Assembly (NCBI GenBank): GCA_021234155.1
Contig: JAJEKV010000053.1
Coordinates: 5,176,488 to 5,240,487 of the forward strand
Length of the DNA: 64,000 nt
Source: Isoetes taiwanensis
Lineage: Eukaryota > Streptophyta > Lycopodiopsida > Isoetales > Isoetaceae
Reading direction: 5' to 3'
The notes beneath the pieces were generated by a model. The model saw only the letters and a program-made list of their open reading frames with translations, ran no database searches and was not told the DNA's origin. The translations under genes were made by a program, and so were the position numbers. Of this stretch, positions 24,296-64,000 are shown in pieces (position 1 is the stretch's first letter; each line of letters starts with the position of its first letter).

Positions 24296-26615
<2,320 letters not shown>

Positions 26616-42944: not shown

Positions 42945-44770
42945 TAATAAAATGTAGGCCAATATGTATAATAATATTATTATACAAGTGATTGTACTAT
43001 AAGAGAGTACACAAATTCTGAGCTATCCAATGAAGATTCTATAAAGCTTCTCTTAGATTCTCCAAGATTTAGGAAAACGCCCACTAGATTCTCAAAGATT
43101 TAATGAAGATTGCCTTAAATTCTCGTAGTCCCATAGATTACTTAAGATTCCTTTAGATTCTCAAAGATTATCCCAAATTTTCTCTAGATTCTCCAAGATT
43201 CTATATAGATTCTCTTACATTCCCTTTGTTTCTATCAAGATTCTCCTACAAAACACATTTAATATGAAAGATTCTCTTAAATTCTTAAGAATCTACAAAG
43301 ATTCCTCTAGATTTCAAACGTTATCACAAGAATCCTCTAGATTCTCCAAAATTCTATGTATATTCTCCTAGATTTCGTTAGATTTTATGTATATTCCCTT
43401 AGATTCTATGTAGATTCCCTTAGATTCTATAGAGATTCCTCTAGATTCTTAAAGATTCCATCAAGGTTCCCCTAGATTCTGAAAGATTCTATGTAGATGT
43501 ACTCAAATTCTGCTAGATTTTGAGCCATCCAATGAAGATTCTATAAACAATGAAGATTCTATGAAGATTTTCTTATTCAGGAAAAAGTATCCTAGATTCT
43601 CAAAGACCTATTGAAGATTCCCTTAGATTCTCTTAATCCCATAGATTATTTAAGATTCTCTTAAGATTTCCCTAGATTCTCAAAGATCATCCTAATTTTT
43701 CTCTAGATTCTCCAAGATTATATATAGATTCCCTTAGATTCTATCAAGATTCCCCTACTAAACACACTTAGTGTGAAAGATTCTCTAAGATTCCCATAGA
43801 TTTTTAAGAATCTACAAAGATTCCTCTAGATTTCAAACGTTATCACAAGAATCCTCTAGATTCTCCAAAATTCTATGTAGATTCTCCTAGATTTTGTTAG
43901 ATTCTATGTAGATTCCCTAGGATTCTATAGAGATTCCCCTAGATTCTTCAAGATACCATCAAGATTGTCTCAAGATTTCTCTAGATTCTCCATGTTTCTA
44001 TGTAGATTCTCCTAGATCCCCTTAGATTCTATGAAGATTCCTCTACATTCTCAAAGGTTTTATAAAGATTCCCATAGATTCTCAAAGATTTCCTTGAGAT
44101 TCTCATAGATTCCCAAAGATTCTTTTGAGTCTCCTCTACACTCTAAGATTCTATGGAGATTCTCCTAGATTCTCTTAAATTCCTTAAATTCTGTAAAATT
44201 CTAAGTTTCTAAAAAGATTCTTAGTATTCGATCGCATTAGATCTAACTGCGAGGGAACGATGCCAAAGCACTACCCATTGGAAAGCTCTCGACGAAAGCA
44301 ATCCAAGGACGTGGGCCCCACCTTCATCCGACCCCACCGGCCTTTGAAGCCCATTATAGAAAAGAAGCTTCATAGAAAGTGCATCCATTAATGTTGGTGC
44401 CACCTCATTACTTTTTTTATTAAATAAGGGTGCCACCTCACCTCTTTTAATAAAAGAAATTGCAATATAATAAAAAATTTAATGGCCAAGATTTCTCCTC
44501 CCCCTTTTGATCCAACGGTTAAGATTGACTGCACCAAAAATCACCTTTTTAGGGACCTTTCTTGCATCTTCTTTTAAAAAAATCAAGGGCCAAGATTTCT
44601 CACGTGCCCAATCAACGGTCTAGGGATGGGTGCATGCCCTATGCATGTCCCATACATGCCCCCCACTAAATCCAAGGGCCATTGTGGCGCCACCTCACAA
44701 AATGGACAGATGGGATCAATCTCTACATAACTTTCACCCCCCCATAGGCACATCAAATAACAGATATATA
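42945..44770 (-). mobile_element. GAATCT-minisatellite element, copy 2 (inverted)
   Basis: Reading on the minus strand gives the same order as copy 1: a head (about 44,770-44,230) with the shared GGTGGCGCC or GGTGGCACC block, the GATCAAAAGG segment and the GGTGGGGCCCACGTCC equivalent of copy 1's GGTGGGACCCACGCC. The GAATCT array follows (44,226-43,018), then an AT-rich tail (about 43,000-42,945). The head is diverged from copy 1 by substitutions and indels, so the two insertions are not recent sisters. Confidence 0.7.
43018..44226 (-). repeat. GAATCT minisatellite array (read as AGATTC on +)
   Basis: Degenerate AGATTC repeats such as AGATTCCCCTAGATTCT. One internal segment (about 43,225-43,410) is duplicated at about 43,740-43,930, including ACACA(T/C)TTA and TTTCAAACGTTATCACAAGA, which indicates higher-order unequal exchange. 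Confidence 0.9.
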
Positions 44771-46064: not shown

Positions 46065-47641
46065 TCAGAGAGGTCTACTATACCAGTCGTCACAAATCAA
46101 AAAACCACAAGGACCTTTACAAACATATAAACCATTGCCATAATCTTCCACTTCACAGACTGGTTTTTTCTTTTCTAGATCATTACATTCAATCCAGCCC
46201 CTTTTTGGCATAAACTTTATATTGACCCAGTCTAGTATGCCACAGTTCCATGTCATGTAACAGAATTCTTGTTTGGACAGTTTCTGCCTTTTATTTAAAA
46301 CAAATTTCCACATCTATATGCCAAGAACTTCAATTCATTTCCATGAAAGATCTTACATGCTTTTGAGTCAAATATGACTTTGTACCCTAAATCTACTAAT
46401 TGACTAACAAAAATCAGATTCTTTATGATGCTTGGTACACATAAGACGTTCTCAATATCAATGATGTTCCCTTGCAAGTCTGTAAGCTGTAGCAAACCAC
46501 TCCCTTCTATTGACTGCAATTGACCATTTCCTATTTGGACATCCTTTGAGTTGGTTGCCTTGACGTTTCTGAGCAGATCAGTAGATTGTACTACTGATCT
46601 CTCAGCTCCATTATCAACTACAAATGTTTCACAATTTGTGTTATCTCCATCATTTTTGTCAATAACAGCAAATACGCAACTTACCTCGTCTTCATTCTCA
46701 GCTTCTTTACCTTCTTGATCATTTTCTTGAGTAAGGTTGATCCCAACTGACCTTCTTCCTCCTCGGCCTCTGCTTGCAGAATTTCTTCCTCCTTGAGTTT
46801 CTCTTTCTTTTCCTCTTCCCCTGCCATAAGCCTTCGGGGAAGAGCATTTGACTGCTATATGCCCTTTGCCCCCACAGTTAAAGCAATTTATGTTATTGTC
46901 CTTAAGCTTTGGGAATTCATTCTTAACATGCCCTTGTTCATGACAGTAATAGAAAGATCCTTTTCCTTTCTTTCCTGCATACAATATTTCTGTGGCTTCA
47001 TCCTCACCGTTAATCTTTTTCTGTTCATATTCAGTCCTTAAAACATTTTCTGCATCTTCTCGTGTTTTGCTCATGTTCGTAATGAACAAGGATAATTGAT
47101 CATTATCTATTATAGCCCTAGAAATTTGAACCATTTGGCTCCTTTCAGAGACAATTACCCCAGCTCCAGACAGATCAGCTATGATATTATCAAAATTGAT
47201 AAAGAATTCGGATACATCACCTTCCTCCTGTAGTTTAAGACCTTTAAGTTCTTTTTCCAGAAGATCAACTTGGAAGGATGTTTTTTCTTCATAGTGCTTA
47301 AGCAAGAAATACCACATCTGTCTTGGTGTTTCGTTTCTAAGCTTAAGCCTGATTGTTGGACTCACCTTGCATGAGATATATCCTTGAGCTTCTTTGACTC
47401 TTGCATATTCAGTTCTCCCTGCACCAATGCGTAGAACTGTTCTTGTTGCATTTGCTTCACCTGTGGCATCATTTTCATTAGTAGCAATATTAACTGAACT
47501 TTCAGACCTGTGCATTGCATTCAAGTCTGCATGACTGACTTCAACACCCTCTGGATCAACGAGATCCCAGAGTTCCTCAACCTCCAGTATATGTTTGATG
47601 GAGTCTTTCCATACTTGAAAGCCTCTTGAAGACTTCAACAC
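46065..47641 (-). pseudogene. Ty1/copia gag and 5' pol, truncated
   Basis: A 448-codon frame (47,641-46,295) begins LKSSRGFQVWKDSIKHILE. It contains a Gag core (SPTIRLKLRNETPRQMWYFL, LLEKELKGLKLQEEGDVSEF), a degenerate first and an intact second zinc knuckle (CFNCGGKGHIAVKC, CX2CX4HX4C), and a protease motif FVVDNGAERSVV where DSGA is usual. It ends in a stop after GNLF. In another frame downstream the GAG-pre-integrase region is recognisable (GWIECNDLEKKKPVCEV, about 46,220-46,140). Everything beyond about 46,060 (integrase core, RT, RNase H, 3' LTR) is missing, so the copy is a 5' fragment. Confidence 0.85.
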
Positions 47642-47709: not shown

Positions 47710-50700
47710 TGATAATACGGTTCAAACTTTTGATTTCAAGAAGCTACTGACGTTATTGTACTACTAGGCAATAGGAAGATAAGACCTCCTTAACTATTCA
47801 AAACCATTGATATAATAATGAAAATACCACTGTAGCAGAACTATTGAAATTTATTCAATAGACATCAGTCGTGCAACAAATTCCGAAAACCCAAGCATTT
47901 GCATATGAAAGGTTACCACCAAAACTTGATACGATCACCTTTTCTCTGTGTCCGACCTTTGTGCATGCTTCTTGATTTATTTACAGGCAATCCGACCAAC
48001 ATGGAATCGGTGTTCGACGCCCATAGACCTGTCACGTTTAAACTGGTTTTGGCTCCCATTTTAAAGCCTTAACCTCCTCATAATATTATATCTATACAAG
48101 AATTTAGCGCTGGCGGAGCCAACGCCATATGCACTGCTAGTAGTTGAACCCAATTGTGATCTTCAGTTTGGATCTATGATGTATGCCCCCATGGCAGTCG
48201 GACCCAAATGCGATCTCCAATTTGGATCTAGAACTTTTATTCTAATAGTGGCACGATGCCTCCTACCGGAAAACAAAATCAGGTTCCAAATATAAACATT
48301 TTCATTTTGGAATTTATTTGTTTAATTTTGGAAGCTGGAGCGATAATGATATATGTAAGAAGACAAAAATTTGGCACCCGTGGGGGTCGAACCCAAGTGA
48401 TGAACCCAATTGCTGTTTCTGCAAAAAAATCAAGCTCTGATCTGAATTGGGTTATGGCAGGGGAAAAAAAAAAGGGAAAAACGAAAACAGTATTTGGGTC
48501 ACAAATGGCGGTGATGGGTTCCAGCAAGGAGAGATTTTTACGCTCTGCGATCGCCATAGCAATACCTTTAAGAGAAAGGAAAACTCTATGCTTTTTGCTT
48601 TGGTCGTAGCCATGGCTTCTGTTTTCTGATAACCGGCTTCTTATGCCATTGGGTTATAGATAACCATATTTGGCAATGGGATTTTAGTTTGCTTTCAGCA
48701 TTTTCTTTAGATTAACCTGGCCCATCGACTCAGAAACACATGCACTTTGTTTTAGTTTTTGAATCCTGCATCAGATTTGATGGCTTGAATTAAAGCTGGG
48801 TCATCTGAGCAAGCTAAAGATGAGTTTTCCTGAAGAAGCTATCCCATCAATGTCCATGGTTCAGGTCTGCCCTTTGTAACCCCGGTGGAAGAATAATAAG
48901 CAGCATATAGAAGAGATTATTAAAACCTGTGTTACTTTTAATCTAGGCCCGCAGAATATTAGAGTTTGAGATCAAAACGTTTGCCTTATTCAATCTTTTG
49001 CTCGAAACAACCAATTGAATACTCAAAAGAAGACGGCTGTTTGCTTCTCTCGGGCCAGAAGACTGAGCTTAAAAGAGGCTTTGATTCTAAACAATTTAAA
49101 TTTCCTCTTAGACAAAGCCTCCACACAAAGATTCAAATACACCCTTTCTTTGTTTTGCTTTCTCTGACGTTTTTATGTTTTTAGAGAACCGGGCATCTTG
49201 GATTAGAGAACCCCGGGTTAAGCTTTCTTAGAGTAGAAGCTTGGCAAGGGTAGCGAATTTCTTGATGCTGGCTTGGCAACGCCCGTGAATTGACCTCCCC
49301 ACAGCTAGGTTCTTTTGCCTTCATGTTCAGAACAAAAAAGACCCCAGCAATCCAAAATCTAGCTCGTGCGAGTGAGCTTCCAGTAGCAGAGTTCGAGCTC
49401 GGATTTAAGAACCCAGCCTGATAATTCAAGAATTCAGAGTCTAAATTTCAGACCCAAATCTGGGTCTATAACCCACAAAAATTGTAGAGTTCAACTTCGG
49501 CTCTAGAAATCCAACACGAGGCGGCGGGCTTGGGAGGGAGGAGTATGCCGGAAATATTTTCTGATTCCAAATGTAATTTATTGGCCTGAAAACTTTTTTT
49601 TTTGGAATTTTTTTGGCCTGAACAGTCCTTTTTATTTTGCTAATAATCATATATATAGGAAGATAAAGACCATTACCTTATAAATATCTCATATAAATAT
49701 CCTTATGCAATGGTCTCTACTAATTTTGTCTCCCATGATCAATACTTCCGACTTCATCCCTTTTTTTTTCTTTCATAAAGAACTCTCTAGCTGGATTCAT
49801 TTATAGTTGTATAATCTTAATAGAGCAGATAGATATGATCATTTTGTCTAGTTACTAACTGAATATGTGATGATCTACCCATTATTTCAACACCATATTT
49901 GGTAGCGGGTTTCTATGCCCCATCCCTCCCCCAAAGTTTTTTCGTTTCTCGAGTATTTTCTATCTAGTGTTGGCTAGTCTTCACTTAGTTTGGGGTTGTT
50001 CATCTAGTTGCTCCGTTGTATCTATGGTCCCTTAATGTCATTTTCTGACTACGCCAGATACTTCCATTCATTTCCTGGTATTCGTTATTCTAGTCTCCAT
50101 ATACTGGTCAGTCCTCTGTATTACTTCATTAGCCTCAAGGTTCCCGATGTGAGTTGTCTTGTATGTTGTTACTATTCTTGAAAGTGGTCCATTATGCGTG
50201 GATAGTATATGTTGGAATTTAGTCTTTCATTTTTACAGTATTTGTCATATGGTTTTTTCCGCTGTCGTTGTTGATGCATTGATTCTCCAATTTGTTTTCA
50301 TGTGCTCGTTGTTGTGGTCGTAGGTCGTAGTTTGTAGTTTGTATTCGGTTTTTTGTGCCTTATTTATTTAATGCATTCCATTTGCCCCATAGTTTTGGCT
50401 TTCTTATTTGTTAATCGAGGTTGGCTCGCATTGAGTCTTCTATGGCGCAGGCTTTCTTTGGCTCTGTCTACTATATATCCATGTTGCTTGCTACCATACC
50501 TCATCAGCGTTTCCTCTGAGCTGAGTTTTATTTGTTCTAAAGTTTCCCTCCCTCCCTCCCTCCTCTCAGTCTAGTCACCTGATATCGGCTCGCCTTAACA
50601 TCTGTTGGTTTTTTCTCATTCCACCTAGCGAGGGCTGGATCGACTCTTCTCTTCTATATCTTTGTAGCTGGTGGCCTCTGCAATTTTCTAGTGTAGCACT

Positions 50701-50745
50701 TGTCGCTTCTGGGGGGCACCTAGGGGCAGACCCCCGCGGTCGGGC
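47710..50745. other. Copia 5' LTR (extent unknown) then intergenic sequence
   Basis: The first few hundred bases must be the copia 5' LTR. At about 48,145-48,232 a unit like TTGAACCCAATTGTGATCTTCAG is repeated with divergence (TCGGACCCAAATGCGATCTCCAA). A TGGGGGTCGAACCCAAGTGA segment at about 48,380 resembles a tRNA B-box. From about 49,700 to 50,745 the sequence is pyrimidine-rich with CCCTCC runs. No gene was recognised. Confidence 0.4.
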
Positions 50746-50747
50746 CT

Positions 50748-50748
50748 A

Positions 50749-50789
<41 letters not shown>

Positions 50790-50839
50790 CCCTAGAATCA
50801 AAGAGAATTTCTTTCCTCCTCCTCCTCCTCCTCCTCCTC

Positions 50840-50916
<77 letters not shown>
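50748..50916. repeat. Compound (CT)n-(CCT)n-(CT)n microsatellite
   Basis: A first (CT)n run (about 50,749-50,786) is followed by CCCCCCTAGAATCAAAGAGA and a short spacer, then a (CCT)n run (about 50,815-50,844), then a second (CT)n run to 50,916. The first LINE starts directly after it. Confidence 0.97.
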
Positions 50917-50920
<4 letters not shown>

Positions 50921-50964
50921 TGAAGGCGCGCGTGAAGGCGGGCGTTTGTGGCGGTCGTGTGCTC

Positions 50965-52246
50965 ATGGCAAAAACAAGGAAAGATACAGAGAAGAAAGAA
51001 GGGTCTTCGAAGGGATCTGATGGTAAGAGTTATCTTCTTTGCGGTTAGTCCCAATAATAAAGAAAGCAAAATCATGCGCAAGAGATGGCGATGGGAATCG
51101 AGGAAGGCCTGAAGGCGAAACCGATGAGACAAGAAAGAATAAAAAAGGGTATAAGGGGCGATTTCGGCGGTGATTCTTCTCGATTCGAATGGGTCTTCCG
51201 CCCGGTGTGCGGATCTAGCAATGATTCGTCACAAACCAGGAGGCTCGGTTCCGGGCCTCTCAAAAAGCAGGGGAAACCTGGCGAGATACGAAAATAGGGG
51301 GTTCGATTCTCGGCAGGTCATTTGCCGTGCTTCTCGAAAAAAGCGAGGTGATAGAGTCTTTGAAAGCAGGAGGGGCTAGAAGGAGCGGAATTTGGGCTGG
51401 GAGTGCAAATGGGTTCTAGTTTTTCCGGAACAGGACTAGGACTGGAAGTTTTGCAGCAAATGGGTTCGGGTTTCTCTGAGAAACCCTCTCTTTTTGCTTC
51501 CGGAACAGAACTAGGAACTTTTCCACATCCTGGGATGCTACAGTAGCAAATGGGTTCTGATTTCACAGCCATGATAAGAACTATCATCAAAGAGTCTGTT
51601 CGTGAAGCAGTACAATCTGCAATCTCTGAAATACATGGTCTTGTGGCAATAGAGGTGAAGAAGAGTCGGGCAACTATAACTCTTGCCCCTTAGAGCAGAG
51701 TACGAACTTTTCAAATCAGAAATGATGGTCACTCTGGAACACAAAGAAGAAGAGACATGTAACAAAGGGAAGGAGGCAGACTGTGACAAAACCGCAAATC
51801 TGAATGAAGAATCAATCTCAGAAATTAAACAACAGCTTGCAAGTTTCATGGAAATGCAAGAACAGAGAAATAGGGCATTAAACCTCAGAATTGTTGGGCT
51901 ACCAGAAGAAGAAGAAAAAGAGAACACTAAACAGAAAGTAGTACAATTTTTCAATGAGCATATGGAGACCGAAGACCATGGCATCACTGATGCTTTTCGA
52001 GTAGGCAGAAAAGGGGACTGGATTCGTCATGTGGTTGTAAAATTTCAAAACAGGGAGTATCGTTCACATATCCTGAGGAAAAGAACAGCATTAAAGGGAC
52101 ATAGTATATGGATAAACGAAGATCTCACTAAGGAACAACTGCAGGAACACAAAGTACAGATGCAAATAATGAGAGAAGCAAGGCAAGCGGGCAAGAAAGC
52201 TTTTTGGAAGAATAGGGAAGTCGTGATCCAGGCAGATGCAGAATAG
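50965..52246 (+). pseudogene. LINE A ORF1 (coiled coil, RRM-like, C-terminal domain)
   Basis: It begins ATG at 50,965 (MAKTRKDTEKKEGSSKGSDG), equivalent to MARKKR in copy B, then loses frame. The clean part (51,683-52,246) has a coiled coil with KQQLASFMEMQEQ, an RRM-like core (ALNLRIVGLPEEEEKENT, DAFRVGRK, RHVVVKFQNREYR), and a C-terminal domain (IWINEDLTKEQLQEHK, REARQAGKKAFWK). This order is that of mammalian-type L1 ORF1 RNA chaperones. It ends at a UAG (52,244-52,246) beyond which ORF2 continues in the same frame. Confidence 0.8.
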
Positions 52247-55200
52247 GGACTTGAGACCATCAGGGTGGGAGCTTGGAACGTTAATACTCTAAAACTCTCT
52301 GATGTAGACACAATGGGCAATGTTTTAGCGGTACTTGATCTGGTATTTTTCTTGGAAACAGGAGAACATGAAGGACGGGGATTGCCATTGATTGCTGGGT
52401 TTACTCTCGTTACCTCAATATGGAATCATAAAGGCTGGAGGCTTAAGGGCTACGGAGGCATCGGGTGCTATATTCGTACAGAATATGTTCATCTGGTTAA
52501 ACATGTAAGTAAGAAAATTTCAAAAAACTATATTTGGATTGAGCTTCCTGGTAGAAGTAAAAGGCTTTTTGTTGCGGGATGTTATTTCCCACCAAGATAT
52601 TCACCAACCTATAATTACGGAGATGTTGACCGCGATGACCCGTTTCATTATTTAGAACAAGATGTGGTGGAATTATCGCAACTGGGTGATACTGTGCTCA
52701 TAGGAGACTTTAATGGACGCATTGCTAATAGACAAGCAGCCATTAGTAGTGATCAAGGGGAAGCATTATGGCTAGAAATGCTAGATGAAGAGGAAGTGAT
52801 GAAATCCGGCTGGGCTAGAGTATCACATGATACGGCTAGATGGGCTAATCCCCAAGGGCTTCATTTGCTAAATATGTGCAGCGGACTAGATCTCTTGATC
52901 TATAATGGCACTAACAGATTTCCCAACACGGGGATTAGCATTACATGTCGAGACGCGGCGTGGTGGATTACGAATTACAAGCGGATTTTGCAAAAGAGGT
53001 TAAGAGCTTCTATGTAGGAGAGGTACGTACCGAATCAGATCATGTCCCTTTGATTATGGAAATTTATGTTAATGGAATGCCACAGCACACTAGCCTTATA
53101 CCTAACCATCGCATTTACATGCGCCAAGATAGAATGGAAAAATTTCAAAAGATGTGTGAAGAAATTGTCAGTAAAACCCATTGGCCATCTGGGGCAAAAG
53201 ACATAAGTGACTTGCTTTCGTCAGTATTGCTAAGTAGTGCTGCACAATCTTTTCAGTCTAAAAGAAGGCAATTGGGGCTCCCTTGCAATTCCTGGTTTGA
53301 TGCAGAGTGTAAAGAGAAGAGACAACGCTATAAGCAAGCCGCAGGTAGCTGTAAGCAAGACCTTAAGAAAGAATACATGAAATTGATTAAACGTAAGAAA
53401 AGGGAACACTTGCTCAAGAAACGTGCAGATATGGTCAAAGAGTTGATTGTTGAACCAAAGAGATTTTGGAATAGACTGAGATTTAAAGGAAGGCATGAGA
53501 TGAAGCTGGACTTAAATGCGCTAATGCAACAAATACGTAAACTTTACTATGTCCCAGGGATAGAGGAGGTACATCTTGTGGAAAAAGATGATGAGATTTT
53601 ACAGTTTTCAGTGGATGATATTTTGGGTGGGCTACAAAAACTCTCTAATGGGAAAGCAGCAGATATTCAGGGGCTAGTTTCAGAAATGGTTAAATGGGCT
53701 GGAATGCCTACAGCGGAGATCCTCACTATAATGTATAATGCAGCTCTACGTGAAGGTTTCCCAACATCTTGGCAGGTGAACAGGGTCATCCCACTACATA
53801 AGACAGGAGATGAGATGGATCCAAACAATTATCGTATGATAATGGTCAGCAGTCTTTTCTCCAAGCTATATGCTACCATTCTTGAGGGTAAAATAAATAA
53901 CTGGGCAGAAGAACATGAGGTCAGAGCACATGGGCAGGCTGGCTTCAGGAAAAAAAGGTCCACGATTGATCACCTGTTGACATTCAGAGGCTTGATAGAT
54001 TGGTAAAGGCACCAAAAACCTATGTTCGCCACTTTTGTGGACTTCACAAAAGCGTTTGACATGAATACAGTGAACTTTTGTGGCATAGATTGGAGGCACT
54101 TGGGGTACCCTCTATCCTGCGCAGGGCCGTGAAGACTCTCTATGAAAAGGTAATGGTTCAACTTTCATTTCCATTATCTCAGCAATGCCCAGATCTAGTG
54201 ACGAGTAACATTGGGGTTAAACAAGGCTGCCCTCTTTCTCCCACATTATTCGGTTTGTTTATAGATGAGTTGGAGGATTGGATGGCCCAATTTGGTGGAG
54301 ACGGTGTTGCATTAGAAGGGTATGTCATTTTGCTGCTATTATATGCTGATGATATTGTATTGTTGTCACGAAGTGTGCAAGGGATGCAGCAACACTTAGA
54401 TGCTTTGGCTTCCTTTTGCGATACCAAATGCATGAAAGTGAATATGACTAAGACGAAAGTGATAGTGTTTGGTGCTAACAAGGTGGATAAATTTGCCTTC
54501 TTCTATAAAGGAGATGACATTGTGGACAGCTATAAATATCTAGGTCTGATAGTGGACAAAAGTCCCAGCTGGAACCAAGCAGTAGAGCAAAAGGTTAATG
54601 GAGGCTTGAAAGCTTTATATGCCATGCAGCGTAAGTGTCATCAAGCAGAAATATGGGATTTCAGCCTGAGGAAGATGCTTTTTATTTCCTTGGTACAAAC
54701 AGTAGTACTATATGGCTGTGAAGTTTGGGGTCCAGGATTATCTGCAGAAAGTTGGAAAAAGATTGAGAAGGTACAAAAGAAATTTTTTCATGCAGAATTG
54801 GGCACTAAAATGCAAACACCTTATGATATGATGCTAGTGGAATGTGGGATGCTACCCCTGGAACTTGAAGCCCTAATCAGACTCTTGGTATATTTGCAAA
54901 AAATACAGACACACGCAGAACACGCTTGTTTGCCTCATTTGGCTCTTGAGAGCAGTGAAGGGAAAGGGTGGTATGCTGACATTGTGCTTTGGCTCAGAAA
55001 ATGGGGGATGAATATTGCGGACTTAGAGTCCAACAAGGATAATATCAAAGGTTGGGTTAGATGGCATGCTATCCACAAAATGTGGAGTGTACCTGAAGTA
55101 AAAAAAGAGCATTACAGATCTATCATGAACCCTGGGTTACGAGAAGCTGAGTATTTAAAAGCTGGATTATCGGTAAAGCTTAGACATACGATAAGCAGGA

Positions 55201-55577
55201 TGAGGCTCAGCTCACATCACTTGGGGGTAGAGATTGGACGCTGGGCAAGAATACCACATACATTGAGATACTGTAAAGTATGTGGATCATCTGAAGTGGA
55301 GGATGAGGTACATGTAATTTTGAGATGTCCGGCTTATCAGTACATACGCACGAAGTTTGGTATACATGTAACAGATTTAGTGGGCTTCTTTGATTTATCT
55401 CCAGCTACAATTGGACGGTTTCTAGTAGAAGTTATGCAAACTAGGGACACCAATATTCAAAACATAAAATCATTGGTAGGAGCTAGCGAGTTTGAGTATG
55501 AGGAGGAGAGCACTAATATGTTCTTACCCGAAGACATATTAGATGATATTATATATGATGTTGAATATGTAAAATGA
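52247..55577 (+). pseudogene. LINE A ORF2 (endonuclease / reverse transcriptase)
   Basis: APE-type endonuclease motifs: WNVNTL, FFLETGEHE, a PPRYSP segment, LIGDFNGRIA (about 52,695-52,725) and SDHVPLI (about 53,036). RT motifs: NGKAADIQGLVSEMVKWAG, NRVIPLHKTGD, QAGFRKKRSTIDHLL, VKQGCPLSPTLFGLFIDEL, LLYADDIVLLS (YADD at 54,342-54,353). A C-terminal cysteine/histidine segment follows (CKVCGSSEVEDEVHVILRC). Frame changes occur near 52,950 and 54,005-54,080, so it is inactive. No RNase H domain is seen. No ATG lies between the ORF1 UAG and the endonuclease WN motif. Confidence 0.85.
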
Positions 55578-55609
55578 ACGTCTTCTAGGCCTGATGGTCT
55601 CACAGACGT
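55578..55609 (+). other. Conserved 3' stem-loop of LINE A
   Basis: The outer stem ACGTC/GACGT and inner stem AGGCC/GGTCT (one G-U pair) enclose the loop TGAT, directly after the ORF2 stop. Copy B has the same structure with a compensated outer base pair. Probably the RNA structure recognised by the reverse transcriptase. Confidence 0.7.
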
Positions 55610-55629
55610 AAAAATAAAGATTTCATTTC

Positions 55630-55632
<3 letters not shown>

Positions 55633-55670
<38 letters not shown>
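55633..55670. repeat. (TC)n tract between LINE A and LINE B
   Basis: About 19 TC dinucleotides. It serves both as the 3' tail of LINE A and as the 5' boundary of LINE B. Confidence 0.97.
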
Positions 55671-55671
<1 letters not shown>

Positions 55672-55753
55672 GAGATCGATTTGCTACAGTGCTTGGGGGT
55701 TTGTTACAGACTGCTACAGTGTTTTGGGAACAGTGCTTTGGGTATCGGGCAGC

Positions 55754-56785
55754 ATGGCACGAAAGAAGAGGACTGCCTCAACAAGTGTTGGAAACAAGAA
55801 AAAAGAAAACCCAGTAACAGAGGAGGATTCGTTGGACTCTGATAGTGTCGGAAATGGTGCCGGAAACTCTGATAGCGCTGGAACAGGGGCCGGAACAGGG
55901 GGAGCAGGGACCAGAACAGGTGGAACTGGCAGTGTTATAGTCGGTAGAGAAACAGGGAGCCCGAGTTCAATCACAAAATTAGAAGCAATTGGTGGTGCAG
56001 ATCTAAGTTTTTCTGAGAAAACAGAGGTTTCGGGCTTTCCTGTTGCAACACCAGATACACTGACCAAGCAAGACCTGCTGCAAGCCATCGGCCAAATGCG
56101 ACAGGCAATGGATCACTCCTTAGTATCCATGAAAATATCCATGGAGATCTCAGTGCAAGGTATGGTTAACGAGCTCAAATCTTTTCTGTTATCCCATGTA
56201 CAGAATGAAATAGATAGATGCAAAGAAGCCATGAAAGTAGAACTGGAAAGCTTCCAGGAACGCATGAAAACTGAAATGGAAACATTCAAGCAGTCAGTTT
56301 TAAGACAGAATAATGATCCCAGTGGATCCACAGGCATGATGGAAACTAATGAAGATATCCTGGAAGTAAGAACTCAGCTTTCTACATATATCGAAGAGCA
56401 AGAAAAGAAAGAAAAGGCATTGAATGTGAGAATTGTGGGCATGCCCGAAGAAACTGGAGAACAGACCAAAGAGCTAGTGGTGGCTTTATGTGAACAGGAC
56501 CTTCAGATTATGGATGCAGGAGTGACTGAAGCATTCCGCATAGGCAAGCCGAACAGTGGCAACCGGCACATTATAGTCCGTTTCAGGTCCAGGGAGGATA
56601 AGATCAATGTTTTGAAAAAGAAAATGCTGCTGAAAGGGAAAAGAAACATATGGATAAATGACGATCTCACCAAAAGCCAGCTGCTAGAGTACAAAGCACA
56701 ACTTCAGATCTTCAAGGAGGCAAGACAGAGTGGCAAAAAAGCATACTGGCGCAGAGGAAAAGTCATAATAGAAGAAGATGCATAG
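55754..56785 (+). CDS. LINE B ORF1, L1-type RNA-binding protein
   Basis: A 343-codon open frame from ATG 55,754 (MARKKRTASTSVGNKKKENP). Domains: a basic N-terminus, a Gly/Ala/Thr-rich linker (about residues 35-70), long helical coiled-coil segments (about residues 110-235, including VELESFQERMKTEMETFKQS), an RRM-like domain (ALNVRIVGMPEETGEQT, TEAFRIGKP, RHIIVRFRSRED) and a C-terminal domain (NIWINDDLTKSQLLEYK, KEARQSGKKAYWRRGK). L1 ORF1 proteins of this layout form trimers and bind element RNA as chaperones. It lacks the CCHC knuckle usual in plant LINE ORF1. The frame ends at UAG 56,783-56,785, with ORF2 in frame behind it. Confidence 0.88.
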   Translation: MARKKRTASTSVGNKKKENPVTEEDSLDSDSVGNGAGNSDSAGTGAGTGGAGTRTGGTGSVIVGRETGSPSSITKLEAIGGADLSFSEKTEVSGFPVATPDTLTKQDLLQAIGQMRQAMDHSLVSMKISMEISVQGMVNELKSFLLSHVQNEIDRCKEAMKVELESFQERMKTEMETFKQSVLRQNNDPSGSTGMMETNEDILEVRTQLSTYIEEQEKKEKALNVRIVGMPEETGEQTKELVVALCEQDLQIMDAGVTEAFRIGKPNSGNRHIIVRFRSREDKINVLKKKMLLKGKRNIWINDDLTKSQLLEYKAQLQIFKEARQSGKKAYWRRGKVIIEEDA

Positions 56786-59700
56786 GAATTAGGGACCATC
56801 AGGATTATGTGTTGGAACATAAACAGCCTGAATTCAACTAAAGTAGCAACTATGAGTGATATTGTTGAACAAGTAGATGTTTTCTTTCTGTTAGAAACTT
56901 GTGAAAATGAGGAAAGAGGGATATTAGACATTCCAGGTTTTATATGTCTTCACTCGGTATGGCATCATAAGCACTGGCGGCTTAAAGGATTCGGTGGGAT
57001 TGCTTGTTACATAAAACAAGAGCTGCGAGGGATGATACAGTTAGTACATGGCATAAAATCTTTGCAATATATATGGATTGAGATATTGGGACCTTTGAAT
57101 AAAATATATATAGCAGGGTGCTACTACCCGCCACGTGAATCACCAGTGTATAACTGGGGGCAAATAGATAGGGATGATCCCTTTTTTGACCTGGAACAAG
57201 ATGTCCTAAAGTTAATGCAACAGGGAGAAGTGATCCTAATGGGTGACTTCAATGGCAGGATAGCACAGAAGCAAGCAGCAATGACTAGTATCGAAGGAGA
57301 TCCTTTGTGGATGGAAATGAATGACGGAAATGAGATGAAGGAACTAGGGTGGCATAGAGAGTCAGCAGATAGAATTAGGTGGCCCACACCACAAGGAAAT
57401 CATGTGCTAAATATGTGTACAGGGCTCGATATGGTCATCTATAATGGTCTCCAAAAATACAGGAATCTGGTAAGCCCACCTGTAGAGGTGCTAGTGTGGT
57501 GGATTTAGTGATAGCTAGCCCAAGATTAATGAGAACCATTTCAGATGTAGATGTTGGTGAAGAAAGGACAGAATCAGATCATGTGCCTATCTTTGTTACC
57601 ATGCATATTAAACCCCAAGAGATTGCAAGAAAAGTAGTAGACAGCTCTAGCAAAAAGATATACATGCGGTATAACAAAGCGGAGGAGTACAACTCCTTAT
57701 GTGAATCCTGTGCCATGTGCAAGGATTGGCCTGAAAAGGTGGAAGAGCTTACTGTGAGCCTTAGTGAATTGGTAATAGAGGCAGCAAAGAAATGTTTTGT
57801 CTCCCAACGCAGGTTAAAAGGGCTCCCGTGCAATAGCTGGTTTGATGAGGAATGCAAAACAAAACGACAAAAATTTAAACATGCAAGAGGGGAGGAGAAA
57901 ATCATGGCTAAAAGGGAATATATGCTACTAGTGAAAGCGAAAAAAGAAAAAGTTCCTATACCAAAAACACATGCGAATGATTGGAGATTTGCTGGTAGAG
58001 CCTAAGAAATTTTGGGCAAGGCTTAAGCCAAGAATGGAACAGGGTGAGTTGCTTGAGGTAGAACCATTACTCAGCCAAGTTAAAAAAATATACAATGTAC
58101 CTGGCATAAAAGACACTGCTCTAGCAGATTTCAATGTAGAATGGGATTTCACAATGGAAGATATACAGGGGGGGTTAAAAACACTGGCAAATGGGAAAGC
58201 TGCAGATAACTTGGGGCTGGTTGCAGAGATGTTTAAGTGGGCAGGAGATGAGATACACAAAACATTGCTGAAATTAATGAATATGGTATTGAGAGAAGGC
58301 TTCCCACGGGAATGGCAAATAAACAGGGTTGTTCCCTTGCATAAAGCGGGTGATAAGTCAGATCCCAGCAACTATAGGATGATTATGATCAGTAGCCTAT
58401 ATGCTAAGCTTTTTGCCACTATGGTTAATAGCAAACTAAGCGGATGGGCAGAAGAAATGGGTGTACAGGATATAGGACAAGCGGGTTTTAGACCCAAACG
58501 GTCCACTACAGATCACTTGGTTACTTTGAGAGCGATGATGGATACAGTTACAGGAACAAGGAAACCACTTTATATGTTATTTGTAGATTTTACAAAAGCT
58601 TTCGACATGGTGGACAGAGACAATTTATGGGAACGTATGGAAAAACTGGGGGTGCCAAACGAATTAAAGCAAGCAGTCAAAATACTATATGAGAAGGTAC
58701 TTGTGCAGCTATCTTTTCCTTATTTTAGAGAAGGTCAGGAACCAGTAGTAAGCAACATAGGGGTAAAGCAAGGATGTCCCATGTCTCCCACTCTTTTTGG
58801 GTTGTTCATAGACCAACTAGAAGATTGGATGATGCAGAACGGAGGGGATGGTATGGCTCTAGAGAGGTTTGTGGTGTTCTTACTCTTATATGCGGATGAT
58901 GTAGTGCTTTTGTCAAGGTCAATTGCTGGAATACAGAAACATTTAGATGGATTGGCTGAATTTTGTGACCACAAGAGTATGAAAGTGAACATGGGAAAGA
59001 CTAAAATAATTGTGTTTGGGGCAAACAAAGTGGATCACATACACCTTGTTTACAAAGGGGAACCGGTAGAACTGGTGGATTCATATAAATACCTAGGGAT
59101 ACAGGTTGATAAAAGTCCGAGTTGGAACTATGCTGTAGAGCAGAGGATAAATGGTGGGCTAAAAGCATTGTATAGTATGCAGCGCAGCAGTAGAAAAAAT
59201 GAGATTTGGAACTTCCAATTGAAAAAGCAGTTATATGGGGTTCTAGTGCAAACAGTATTGTTATATGGCTGTGAGGTATGGGCTCCAGGTTTGGCTGAGG
59301 AGACTTGGAGGAAAATAGAAAAGGTACAGAAGAAGTTTCTCAGAACAGAGCTCGGTGTTAAATCACAGACACCATATGACATGCTATTGGCCGAGTGTGG
59401 GATGACATCATTGCAATCAGAAGCCCTGTGCCGAACGCTTAAGTATGTATGCAAGGTACAGGAAATGCCTGTATCAAGTTTACCACGATTGGCCTTAGAG
59501 GCAACGAAATACAAAGGGTGGTATGCCGATATACAAAATTGGATGAGAAAATGGGATTTAGATGTATCTGGATTGGCCGAACATCATGCGGATATTAGGG
59601 AGTGGGTATTGGAACATGTTATGGAGAAATCATGGAGAGTGCCAAAAGTCAAGAAGGAATATTACAGGCGGAATATCAGCCCACAGCTTCAGGTTCCAAG

Positions 59701-60109
59701 ATATTTGAGAGAAGGTGTGTCATTAAAGTTAAGACATACAATTGGCAGAATGAGACTTAGCTCACATCATCTTGGCGTTGAAGTTGGGCGTTGGAGCAAT
59801 ATTCCCCACGAGCTGAGACTCTGCAAGCTATGCAAGATGGGAGTGGTTGAGGATGAAATGCATGTGCTTCTACAGTGCCCGCAATACAAAAGCATCAGAG
59901 ATACATACGATATTGTTTGTGGTAACTTGATAGCTTTCTTTGATATGCCAGGTAGCACAATCGGTAACTATATTGTTAAAATTTTGGATCATAGGGATAT
60001 AATGTTGAGGAAACTTAACATCCAAGAGATACAAGAGGATGAGTTAGAGGGGTCTAGTAGTGCATTTCTTTCAGAGGATGCACTAGAGGATATATTTTAC
60101 AATCTGTAA
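56786..60109 (+). pseudogene. LINE B ORF2 (APE endonuclease, RT, Cys/His C-terminus)
   Basis: The endonuclease carries WNINSLN, FFLLETCENEE, YYPPRESP, LMGDFNGRIA (about 57,237-57,270) and SDHVPIF. RT carries LANGKAADNLGLVAEMFKWA, HKAGDKSDPSNYRMI, FVDFTKAFDMVDRDNLW, VKQGCPMSPTLFGLF and YADD at 58,889-58,900. The C-terminus has SSHHLGVEVGRW and CKLCKMGVVEDEMHVLLQC. Frameshifts occur near 57,490 and near 57,950 (in an A-rich run). From 57,971 the frame is open for 712 codons to the stop at 60,109. It is in the same frame as ORF1 across one UAG. The only early ATG is at 56,807, just before WNIN. One repaired indel each side would leave a complete ORF2, so the copy may be recent or the indels may be sequencing errors. 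Confidence 0.87.
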
Positions 60110-60121
60110 GTGTATAGTTGA

Positions 60122-60152
60122 GCGTCACATAGACCTGGTGGTCTGCAGACGC
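60122..60152 (+). other. Conserved 3' stem-loop of LINE B
   Basis: The outer stem GCGTC/GACGC and inner stem AGACC/GGTCT enclose TGGT. Compared with copy A, the outermost pair is G-C instead of A-T, a compensatory change that supports a real RNA structure. Confidence 0.75.
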
Positions 60153-60172
60153 ATATCTATAAACATTTCATT

Positions 60173-60174
<2 letters not shown>

Positions 60175-60261
<87 letters not shown>
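60175..60261. repeat. (TC)n tract between LINE B and LINE C
   Basis: About 43 CT dinucleotides. It is the tail of LINE B and the 5' boundary of LINE C, whose first ATG follows within a few bases. Confidence 0.97.
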
Positions 60262-60263
<2 letters not shown>

Positions 60264-60265
<2 letters not shown>

Positions 60266-61296
60266 GGCTTGATCCACGATTAAGCTCAAAACTAGGGCAC
60301 AAAAAAACAAGGAAAAAATCTCCCAATCAGACCCTGCTGTTCACGAAAAAGGACCCGGTGCTAAATCGGGATCCCAGTCCCATGGTAGCGTGCAGAAGGG
60401 GGCTCCTAAACCAGGAGCCCCAAGAAACAAACAAAAAGCAGCAGCATCCGATGCAGAAGGAGATGAATCAGAGGCAGAATCCGGGAGCATGCATAAGGTT
60501 TCGGCTGATGGAAATCCAGGTACGTGTCCTCCTTTGTGTGGATTTAATATCTGGCTAGGGATGGGCATAGCAGGGATGCAAGGGATGCATGGGATACAGA
60601 ATAGCATAGCAGGGATGCAATCTATAACAGGGCAACAGGTCCCCAACGATTTGATGCCAATGTTAAGCCAGGTTATCAGTGAACTCTCTGCAACAAGAAT
60701 AATGATGATGAAAATGATGGAGCTGATGGAAACATCTCTGAAATCCCTGTCTCTTAACCTGGCAGAGCTCAAAGCAGAAAACCATCCATGAAAAGAGAGT
60801 TAGAAAGTCTGAAAACACAAAGACAAGAAGACTGCTATGAATTTGACAGAAATGATGAAAATGACTCGTTGAAGGAAGTGGTTCAGAAATTGAATCAAAG
60901 ATTTGATGATCTCAAAGAGCAGCAAGACAGGCAAAGCAGGGCCCTTAATCTGCGAGTAGCTGGCTTGCCTGAAAAAGAAGACGAAAATGTTAAGAATGAG
61001 GTTGCTGAATTTCTAGCACAACAGATCAATGGGATAGTAGAGGCTTTCAGAATTGGAAAGCCAAATGGAAAGGACAGGAATATAGTGGTGAAGTTCTCTC
61101 ATAGAGATCATAAAAATGCAGTACTGTCAAAGAGGAAAACTTTGAGTGGAAAGAAGATATGGATCAACGAAGATCTCACACAAAATCAATATATGCAGCA
61201 CAAACTAGAAATACAAAAATGAAAGAGGCCAAGCAAGCAGGAAAACAAGCAAAATGGAGAAAAGGCAAAGTAGTGATAGAAGATGTAGGGGAATAG
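60264..61296 (+). pseudogene. LINE C ORF1
   Basis: ATG at 60,264 is followed by a stop at the third codon; the same frame is then open to about 60,790. The N-terminal part is basic and Ala/Pro/Gly-rich (KPGAPRNKQKAAASDAEGDE), followed by the Met/Gly stretch and helical segments. After a frameshift at about 60,788 come a coiled coil (KLNQRFDDLKEQQDRQ), the RRM-like part (ALNLRVAGLPEKEDENV, EAFRIGKPN, NIVVKFSHRDHK) and KIWINEDLTQNQYMQHK. A second frameshift at about 61,222 leads to KEAKQAGKQAKWRKGK and a UAG at 61,294-61,296 in frame with ORF2. Confidence 0.78.
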
Positions 61297-64000
61297 GAAT
61301 TGCAGGCCATCAGGATTTGTACGTGGAATATCAACGGATTAGATAGCAACAAAGTAGCTTCTGCCGGAGATGTTCTCAATCAATGGGATGTAATCTTCTT
61401 GACCGAAACACATGAACATGAGGAGGCGGGTTTGCCAATCATAACGGGATACCAAGTTCTACATTCAGAGTGCTATGGAGACATAGAGGTTTTGGAGGGG
61501 TAGCGTGCTACGTGAAAGAAGGGCTGGAAATTGTGAAATTGAAGAAAAAACACTGTACAAAACAATTCATTGTGATCGAGATACCAGGGAGGCATAAGGC
61601 AACATATGTAATAGGCTGCTATTTTCCTCCAAGGGAGTCCCCTACGTATGACCGCGCGAACATGGACAGGGATGACCCTTTTCACCACTTGGAACAGGTA
61701 GCTTTGGAATTGATGGAATTGGGGGATATAGTCATAATGGGAGATTTTAATGGAAGAATTGCAGACAAACAAGCATACATAAGCAGTCAATCAGGGGAAC
61801 CCGTCTGGATGGAAAGAATGGATGACGAAGAAATGCGGATAGCAGGTTGGGCCAGGCAAACATCAGATTCATATGAATACATTATGCCACAAGGGAATCA
61901 TCTGCTTAATATGTGTGGCGGCCTAGGAATGCTTATTCTTAATGGGATTCCACGTTTTGCAGACACTCATAAATGCACTTCGAATGGGACAGGGGGAAGA
62001 GGATCTAGTGTAGTGGATGTGGTGATTGCACAGGCTCAGTTCATAGACAAAATATTGGCTTTCACAGTTGGGGAAATAAGACCAGAGTCCGACCATGTGC
62101 CTATTGTAATTAAGCTTGAAACCTGGAAAGGAAATCCTGTACAAAAGAAGGGCCACAAGTATGGAGGAGTGAAAATGAGCTACAAGAAGGCAGACACATA
62201 TATGAAAATGTGCGAAGAAAGGTCGCAAGCTCTAATATGGCCAGATACTGCTGCAGAAATCAGCACAATGCTCACAAACATGCTTCTGGAAACAGTGGAG
62301 AAATGCTTTACTTCTCATAGAAAAATGAAGGGGCTCCTTTTTAACATCTGGTTCGATGCAGAATGCAGGGCAGAAAGAGAGCGATATAAGAAGGCAAGTC
62401 AGCAAGAGAAACCAGCCATAAGGAAAACATATTTCAAGCTGTTGAGGTATAAGAAAAGGGGATTTCTGAGAAAAAAACAGGAAGAGCTAGTTCTAGAACT
62501 CATCGCCAAATCAAAAAGGTTTTGGAATAGACTAAAAGGGACAACAAAGGGACTCACTACCAAGCTAGAGGAGAGAACTTACTTGGACATTTGAATAAGT
62601 TATACCATATTGCAAATGTGGATGATAGCGACATGCGGCAATGACATTATGGAAATACTTGAGAGGAGGATGTAATTCATGGGCTCTGCGAAACTTGCCA
62701 ATGGCAAACCAAAGGGATGCAAGGGGCTGATCAGCGGAAATGCTTAAATGGGCAGGCCCAAACACTACACAAGTCATAGTCAAGATGCTAAATGCAGCAG
62801 CAAGAGAAGGTTTCCCATCCACATGGCAAATAAGCGAGAAGTCTTGGATTCATAAAGCAGGAAGTGAGACCGATCCAGGAAACTATCGAATGATAATGGT
62901 AAGCAATATTTTTTCTAAACTTTTTGCATCCATTGTTGAACAGAAACTAAGTTTATGGGCAGAGATACATGGAGTTAGAGCAAAGGGCCAAGCAGGTTTC
63001 AGATCTAAAAAGTCTACCATAGACCATCTTGTTACTCTCAGAGCAGCCATGGACTCTATAAAAAAATGAAGAAACCTCTGTTTTGCATTATTTGTAGACC
63101 TAACCAAGGCTTTTGACATGGTTAGGAGAAGCAACTTTGTGGGGAAAGAATGGAGCACATAGGGATCCTGTGACCATGAGAAATCAACGGTTGCTTGTTT
63201 GTATGAGAAGGTTCTTATTCAGCTGTCCTCTCCTCTAGTGGAGGAATGCAAAGAGTTTGTACATAGTAATGTTGGGGTTAAACAGGGGTGTCCGCTGTCC
63301 CCAACTCTATTCGGCATTTTCATTGATGAACTGGAATCCTGGATCACACAAAAAGGCGGCGAAGGAACAATAGTAGGTGGCTATGCTCTGTTATTGCTCC
63401 TGTATGCAGATGATATAGTGTTATTATCAAGAAGTAAAAAGGAGACTCTGAGAAACATTTAGATGTGTTAGAGGCATTTTGTGACAGGATGCAAATGAGT
63501 GTAAACTTAAAGAAAACCAAGATCATAGTATTTGATACAAAGACGGATGACTTCACCTTCACATTCAAGGGAGAAAAAGTAGATTTGACAACACAATACA
63601 AATATCTTGGGCTCTTTGGTAGACGAGAATTACAAGTGGAACAAGGCAAGTAGAACAAAAAAGCGGATCTTTGGTTTGAAAGCCTTGTTTTCCATGCAAA
63701 GAAGATGCAAGAAAGCGGAGATTGTAGATTTTGGACTTAAAAAAATGCTATACAAGGCGGCTTGTTCAAGCGGTTGTATTATATGGATCGAAGTGTGGGG
63801 ACTGGTCTATCTCGGGATATGTGGAAAAGGATTGAGAAAATCCAAAAGAAATTCTTGATGTGAGCTAGGAGTTAAACTCCAAGCGCCTTATGAGATGCTC
63901 TTAAGTGAAAGCAGGGGCTGATCCCATTGGAAGGGAGGCAATATGCCATTTCTTGCATTATTACAAATTAAAGTCCGGGAACATGGATGAAAGGCGCGCA
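61297..64000 (+). pseudogene. LINE C ORF2, partial at the window end
   Basis: Endonuclease motifs WNINGLD, FLTETHEHEE, YFPPRESPTY, IMGDFNGRIA (about 61,735-61,765), RGSSVVDVVIAQ and SDHVPIV are present. The region linking endonuclease to RT (about 62,570-62,750) is heavily damaged. RT resumes with MLKWAGPNTTQVIVKMLNAA, NYRMIMVSNIFSKLF, QAGFRSKKSTIDHLV, VKQGCPLSPTLFGIFIDELE and YADD (63,403-63,414), with further frameshifts near 61,490, 63,070 and 63,460. No ATG occurs between the UAG and the WN motif, nor for many codons after it. Confidence 0.82.

Follow-up and report, generated by a model that had tools for sequence, protein, structure and literature searches.

A LINE Family of the Lycophyte Isoetes taiwanensis That Very Probably Targets TC Microsatellites

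Introduction

Target-specific long interspersed nuclear elements (LINEs) are well known in animals. Toward the end of a 64,000-nucleotide stretch of the Isoetes taiwanensis genome (C1060:5,176,488-5,240,487; this whole stretch is referred to as the window), three LINE copies (A, B, and C) follow one another with TC microsatellites between them, which raises the question of how elements and microsatellites came to stand together. The initial annotation of this DNA proposed a LINE family that inserts into, and leaves, TC microsatellites, each insertion providing a landing site for the next. We searched the genome (1.658 Gb in 1,110 contigs) for further copies and for sites without them, and the flanks of the copies, the empty paralogous sites, and the divergence within the array support this proposal. 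With a probability of about 0.92, the Isoetes LINE family consists of non-long terminal repeat (non-LTR) retrotransposons that have a machinery for inserting specifically into (TC)n/(GA)n microsatellites.

Three LINE Copies in the TC Tract of a Host Repeat

Copies A, B, and C share one orientation and follow head to tail with a TC tract at every boundary, and the array as a whole occupies the TC tract of an interspersed host repeat. The full order is the left half of the host repeat, a CT/TC tract, A, (TC)18, B, (TC)43, C, (TC)76, and the right half of the host repeat, which resumes after copy C beyond the window (in the continuation, L069). The components within the window are as follows (ORF, open reading frame; TRF, Tandem Repeats Finder; APE, apurinic/apyrimidinic endonuclease; RRM, RNA recognition motif).

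50561..50750, + strand: left half of the interspersed host repeat that supplied, with its TC tract, the original target (left bound approximate; same half in L142-L147 and L149)
50751..50917, + strand: TC/CT tract before copy A, broken by about 26 other bases and a TCC run (TRF and sequence)
50918..55632, + strand: LINE copy A, with ORF1 remnant, endonuclease, reverse transcriptase, 3' hairpin, and ATTTCATTTC tail; broken frames
52265..53017, + strand: copy A endonuclease frame (50% amino acid identity to B)
54078..55577, + strand: copy A reverse transcriptase, C-terminal part, and CX2C..H..C motif (PF00078, E 2.8e-17)
55578..55609, + strand: copy A 3' hairpin, two stacked stems, ahead of the ATTTC tail (RNA fold -14.3 kcal/mol, 60-nt piece)
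55633..55669, + strand: (TC)18 separating A and B (TRF)
55670..60175, + strand: LINE copy B, near full length
55754..56785, + strand: copy B ORF1, with low-confidence N terminus, coiled coil, RRM, and C-terminal domain
56807..57508, + strand: copy B endonuclease, APE type (PF03372, E 4.2e-10)
57971..60109, + strand: copy B reverse transcriptase and C-terminal CX2CX9HX4C motif (PF00078, E 1.9e-30)
60122..60152, + strand: copy B 3' hairpin (RNA fold -16.1 kcal/mol, 61-nt piece)
60176..60261, + strand: (TC)43 separating B and C (TRF)
60262..64000, + strand: part of LINE copy C inside the window, running on to window-equivalent 64,696

The perfect CT/TC tracts at 50,751-50,787, 50,843-50,917, 55,633-55,669, and 60,176-60,261 bear out the earlier claim that the three copies share one orientation and each start right after a CT/TC run. 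Its start coordinate for C (60,262) was exact, while those for A and B were each off by one base (50,918 rather than 50,917, and 55,670 rather than 55,671). The 3' ends of A and B pass through ATTTCATTTC into TC runs just as described, and no poly-A tail was found on these copies, their ends being ATTTC/TC. Copy C extends 0.7 kb past the window (L069), where it ends in AATAAAAC followed by (TC)76 at window-equivalent 64,697-64,848. The frames are broken in all three copies.

Only one TC tract of at least 12 bp lies in the window outside the array, and no GA tract of that length does. This lone tract, a (TC)70 at 24,298-24,437 with no LINE seen beside it, is a free target.

TC Tracts at the Ends of Other Genomic Copies

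The 3' ends of other copies were sampled by searching at the protein level with the C-terminal 275 residues of B ORF2 (31,864 first-look candidates, 140 scored), from which 30 loci and then 20 more (ranks 31 and 33-51) were taken, and a third set of 20 loci came from a search with ORF1. Loci are given by L numbers, and the window's own copy B is among the samples (L009, L039). A 3' end was counted if a perfect TC tract, 12 bp or longer, began no more than 45 bp from the tail; L016 and eight of the 20 loci in the third set (L072, L080, L082, L084, and L086-L089) have no tail and were excluded. L023 was scored as a TC match from its true tail position, and its GA control was taken at a mis-anchored place. 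By set, 22/29, 14/20, and 5/12 copies have the TC tract, i.e., 41 of the 61 with a recognisable tail, and a GA tract occurs in the same 45-bp interval in none of the 61.

For the 5' ends, the search with B ORF1 (5,181 candidates, 118 scored) yielded 30 and 20 loci, of which 24 and 18 respectively (42/50) have a tract with 12 bp or more of TC upstream of ORF1; the second set stands at 15/20 if only the last 700 bp are counted, three tracts lying farther out. No GA tract was found in the last 700 bp before ORF1 at any of the 50 loci. As judged by eye, the element begins directly after TC, a few bases from an ORF1-like start, in L127, L128, L134, L136, and L141, and other sequence or repeats stand between the tract and the recognisable element in L047, L053, L122, and L137. 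In L055, a LINE endonuclease fragment lies inverted after a long TC tract and is followed by a copy that has (TC)7 before ORF1; this may reflect a 5' inversion or an insertion in the opposite orientation.

Three controls were used: the GA strand, the pattern in reverse, and the genomic background. On both strands together, the genome holds 6,226 runs of (TC)8 or longer that end in C and then a base other than T, which gives a chance expectation of about 0.05% within the 45 bp of the 3' interval and 0.28% within 700 bp, with a small mismatch in that the background derives from 16-bp tracts and the test used 12-bp tracts. The initial annotation had called for a table of the flanks of other copies and named as contrary evidence a majority of copies in non-TC sequence; in these samples the majority have TC, at 41/61 3' ends and 42/50 5' ends.

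The same association appears in genome-wide pattern counts, which involve no selection by flank. An exact 22-base form of the 3' hairpin occurs at 93 plus-strand and 90 minus-strand sites genome-wide, and (TC)6 follows 12-42 bases after it at 58 of the 93 plus-strand sites (the plus-strand count alone is used because the variable gap inflates the minus-strand count), whereas (GA)6 follows at none of the 183 on both strands. Likewise, ATTTCATTTC(TC)5 has 534 genomic sites and the pattern read backwards has none. The hairpin itself, ACGTCTCATAGACC-TGGT-GGTCTGCAGACGT and variants, forms a stable fold in A and B. According to Ohshima (PMC3747384, excerpt), stem-loops are common in stringent 3'-end recognition, one plant L1 lineage included.

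Empty Sites and the Origin of the TC Tracts

The alternative that survives best, which we nevertheless regard as very improbable, is that the element makes the TC itself, by a TC-rich 5' leader and a (TC)n tail made by slippage, and inserts without a target. Many LINEs end at the 3' side in a simple repeat and ATTTC passes into TC gradually, as this origin would have it, and in L049/L085 a 16-bp word starting with TCTCT is present on both sides, lying outside (TC)52 on the 5' side. Such an origin can be set against host-repeat copies that hold no LINE. The TC tract plus right half of the host repeat around the array occurs at 11 exact places in the genome, and of eight fetched, seven (L142-L147 and L149) consist of left half, TC tract, and right half, with no LINE protein match in any of the seven. 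LINE-free copies thus already hold TC at this place; their tracts range from (TC)5 to (TC)69, three being only (TC)5-6 and one G-interrupted. The eighth copy (L148) has at the tract a tail that looks LINE-like by eye and that matched no protein or profile.

For a second host repeat, CATGTGGCCAACGCA(TC)n..GGCCACATGC, the left word followed by TC occurs exactly at 131 sites, and 12 of these were fetched (L090-L101). Three (L090, L091, and L099) are empty, with (TC)n alone between the halves. In L092, a short LINE tail truncated at its 5' end (profile E 8.4e-16) sits within the TC tract, with both repeat halves present and 511 bp in all. LINE coding starts about 5 bases or less from the tract in L094 and L098; in L096 and L100, more CT-rich sequence comes after the TC before coding begins, and in L101 a short element stands ahead of (TC)40. 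The other three, L093, L095, and L097, were left unassigned. The central TC tract of this repeat is flanked by the inverted words CATGTGGCC and GGCCACATG, and it is a frequent LINE landing site.

The empty sites are paralogous copies of the host repeats in the same genome, in place of the empty alleles of related genomes that the initial annotation had proposed to compare, and they make up 7/8 fetched copies of the first repeat and 3/12 of the second. Since copies with 5' truncations at different internal points (L092, L094, and L098) nevertheless begin at TC, the tract is part of the target rather than of the element's 5' end, and short interspersed nuclear elements (SINEs) and LINEs with different 5' starts share one tract (see below). 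We therefore reject an element-made origin on the empty host repeats, unless their tracts are scars of lost elements. In the functional sense, the Isoetes LINE is very probably of the microsatellite-targeting kind, the tract flanking most copies having one orientation and the target existing beforehand.

Serial Arrays Elsewhere in the Genome

Another explanation for head-to-tail copies, and a still less probable one, is tandem duplication or unequal exchange between TC tracts. TC tracts are recombinogenic, and some tails are very close to each other (C952:16,076,971 and 16,077,094), yet the DNA of A, B, and C diverges by about 35%. In the longest blastn blocks, the identity is 66% for A-B, 65% for B-C, and 64% for A-C, and at the protein level B matches A and C at 34-59% in endonuclease and reverse transcriptase pieces and at 35-40% in ORF1. 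At 64-66% identity the copies were not copied from one another in place, and tandem amplification, which the initial annotation had already thought unlikely for this reason, is ruled out for this array.

Upstream of 24 TC-preceded 5' ends, a LINE in the same orientation was found in 12 and one in the opposite orientation in three; downstream of 30 3' ends, the counts are 15 and three (self matches of L029, L030, and L031 to their own element ends were removed). Both sets take in the window's own B. Among the 12 upstream neighbours, 11 match A or B proteins at 36-63% and one at 95%; the neighbours were compared with A or B and not with each other, and the 36-63% matches point to varied lineages and stand against duplication in these other arrays. 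By profile, the tail of another copy precedes the 5' tract in 10/30 and 2/20 loci, and more divergent tails were seen there by eye in L128, L137, L138, and L141. From the neighbour counts, serial insertion is common in the genome and not peculiar to this window, and the proposal that each insertion leaves a TC landing site for the next agrees with the excess of same-orientation neighbours upstream (12/24, against three in opposite orientation).

Two further explanations rank lowest of all. Random insertion with survival only in TC tracts as a safe haven would draw on microsatellites being mostly non-coding, where insertions are likely tolerated, and we reject it on the strand asymmetry, as selection is blind to orientation and GA stands at 0/61 3' and 0/50 5' ends; moreover, TC tracts are a tiny part of the genome. 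Chimeric joining of contigs at microsatellites, which would draw on long TC tracts being hard to assemble (the published assembly was built from Nanopore, Illumina, and Bionano data; PMC8566536, excerpt), is rejected as well, since the other half of the host repeat resumes after the three LINEs, the insertion in L092 is whole within 511 bp together with both repeat halves, and the pattern occurs on many contigs.

SINEs in the Same Tracts

Two SINE families, which we take to be transfer RNA (tRNA)-like from words resembling box A and box B, share the TC tracts of the LINEs (L015, L022, L031, L058, L078, and L129), with 3' ends of GTGACATTAAAATAC(TC)n and GACGTAAAAAATACATCTA(TC)n. ARAGORN called no tRNA in L015, L022, or L078. 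The orders found are LINE-(TC)4-SINE1-(TC)8-LINE in L015, LINE-(TC)4-SINE2-(TC)40 in L022, and LINE-(TC)29-SINE2-(TC)22-host repeat in L078. In L031, a 5'-truncated SINE1 lies between two copies of the 11-bp ATGCCCTATTG, each directly after a TC tract, which is the target duplication expected if the GA strand is nicked in the tract and the cut on the TC strand falls 11 bases past it. The SINE1 tail pattern has only seven exact sites. Both families are candidate passengers of the LINE machinery.

Exceptions to TC Targeting

Several observations weigh against TC targeting as the general rule, and the targeting is not absolute. Twenty of the 61 3' ends lack a 12-bp TC tract, and the third 3' set reaches only 5/12. 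Among the 20, six have short TC (L015, L022, L026, L073, L081, and L085) and six are CT-rich (L019, L038, L111, L115, L118, and L119), and seven are neither (L011, L037, L070, L076, L079, L102, and L113). The remaining 3' end, L077 (of copy L060), reads TCTC(AC)n, and the 5' end of this copy has no TC; the CA repeat here is perhaps another dinucleotide repeat that was used. Eight of the 50 5' ends lack a 12-bp TC tract (L040, L054, L060, L062, L067, L068, L126, and L133), and four copies with both ends seen have TC at neither (L040/L011, L054/L070, L067/L076, and L068/L079). In six copies without 5' TC, a search for target duplications gave shared words of only 6-11 bp, none convincing. Within the array, copy C lacks the ATTTCATTTC motif and the ATTTC tail, though its TC tract is kept.

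The sampling has to be weighed likewise, as the samples are the best-scoring copies relative to B and thus non-random, and the 5' test accepted a tract anywhere in the fetched stretch, with abutment judged by eye. Covariation support for the hairpin is modest, because 11 of 1,000 shuffles reach the observed pairing (333/396 cells over 36 distinct stem sequences, hand-anchored); RNAalifold on the gapped hairpin alignment gave three pairs only.

Proposed Insertion Mechanism

On the reading that the machinery targets TC microsatellites, the ORF2 endonuclease would most likely nick the tract on its GA strand. The RNA of the element, which ends in the hairpin and then (AUUUC)n, would be placed on the nicked GA end, where reverse transcription would be primed; the TC strand would then be cut within or slightly past the tract, and the 5' end joined. 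If the GA strand alone primes, every copy would come to lie in one orientation relative to the tract, and because each insertion leaves TC on both sides, the site would stay a target. Copies of other lineages that arrive later, and SINEs whose tails are linked to TC, could then insert behind or in front, producing head-to-tail arrays. Target-primed reverse transcription from a GA nick would thus explain why the orientation is fixed, why TC stands on both sides, why copies are truncated, and why they follow head to tail; the order of nicking, the role of the hairpin, the use of LINE enzymes by the SINEs, and present activity are what we infer in this scheme.

Protein Anatomy and Relatives

The element encodes an endonuclease (PF03372) and a reverse transcriptase (PF00078), and no match to an LTR-like element type was found. 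Its ORF1 has the L1-type (type II) layout of coiled coil, RRM, and C-terminal domain; searched against the protein database, B ORF1 had none of 7,287 candidates at E 0.001. The endonuclease, searched against PDB sequences, had two matches at E up to 1, with no LINE among them. No RNase H or zf-RVT Pfam match follows the reverse transcriptase within 57971-60106 at E 0.01.

The nearest named relatives of the reverse transcriptase are Taxus proteins at 39-42% identity, and the land-plant relatives (P0009, P0016, and P0022 of Taxus chinensis, and P0102 of Adiantum) span 32-42%, so the lineage may, judging from these matches, be wider in land plants. In a tree of 52 reverse transcriptase rows, A and B group together within a set of 24 rows of mostly unnamed proteins plus three from Taxus (Shimodaira-Hasegawa-like approximate likelihood-ratio test (SH-aLRT) 98); the outgroups of this tree are human L1 and R2, which form long distant branches, and it contains no Tx1 sequence. 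By sequence search, the reverse transcriptase is no closer to human L1 than to R2. The APE-type endonuclease (PF03372) is a trait shared with Tx1 and not specific to it; target-specific Tx1-clade elements carry an endonuclease of this type (PMC4640811, excerpt).

Comparison With Known Elements

Among openly available papers, we found no TC- or microsatellite-targeting LINE of a land plant, a search that left the closed literature and Repbase uncovered. Kibi, a Tx1-clade LINE of fish that Kojima and Fujiwara reportedly described in 2004, is said to target TC microsatellites; it has the target dinucleotide TC in common with the Isoetes LINE and works alike. The Isoetes LINE differs from Kibi in its lycophyte host and in the serial arrays, host-repeat empty sites, and candidate SINE passengers described here. 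KibiFr1 has been named as the closest Repbase sequence to elements in Takifugu rubripes (PMC6515669, excerpt). Togen also targets a microsatellite, (TG)n (PMC4640811, excerpt), as the Isoetes LINE does; however, Togen-like LINEs are grouped with restriction-like-endonuclease elements, and the endonuclease of the Isoetes LINE is of the APE type.

Zepp and ZeppL, L1 elements of green algae, insert in nested fashion into existing copies and form clusters with many 5'-truncated copies (PMC8226300, excerpt). The Isoetes LINE shows this Zepp-type nested clustering (same-orientation neighbours in 12/24 upstream and 15/30 downstream), a likeness in working and not in kinship. Unlike Zepp, which ends in poly(A) (PMC3747384, excerpt), it ends in ATTTC/TC, and whereas Zepp is thought to make up centromeres, the Isoetes landing site is the TC tract, which is also free in the genome.

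The L1 elements of flowering plants have the order of endonuclease and reverse transcriptase, and a land-plant host, in common with the Isoetes LINE. They have a two-ORF layout, and a zf-RVT domain is associated with the flowering-plant type. In contrast, the Isoetes LINE ends in (ATTTC)n plus TC and lacks an RNase H or zf-RVT match in its reverse transcriptase frame; an (A)n end is given for 224 of 233 flowering-plant L1 families (PMC3747384, excerpt), and RNase H is associated with plant L1 (PMC4640811, excerpt). Compared with human LINE-1, the Isoetes LINE has no poly(A) and a strong target preference.

Other Features of the Window

Two large arrays built on a GAATCTA-like unit lie at 27299-29440 and 43134-44202, the second on the reverse complement of the unit, so that two oppositely oriented minisatellites are separated by about 14 kb. 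Two protein-coding features were also found.

18961-20121, - strand: glyoxalase-type open frame (PF00903)
46298-47641, - strand: Copia-type gag/pol fragment (PF14223, PF22936, zf-CCHC)

Implications

A broader proposition joins several of these points, namely that a land-plant LINE outside Tx1 evolved TC targeting by itself, seeds and expands TC sites, and drags along at least two tRNA-like SINE families, so that TC microsatellites are largely a LINE/SINE habitat of serial head-to-tail arrays. That all of this holds together has, in our estimate, about an even chance. A plant LINE with strong dinucleotide targeting would mean that the safe-site strategy arises or persists outside animals, and its endonuclease would be a natural one with a repeat target. 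For the Isoetes genome, it would explain how some of the long TC microsatellites, with the sequences next to them, originated, and the ordered arrays would make the succession of LINE lineages readable.

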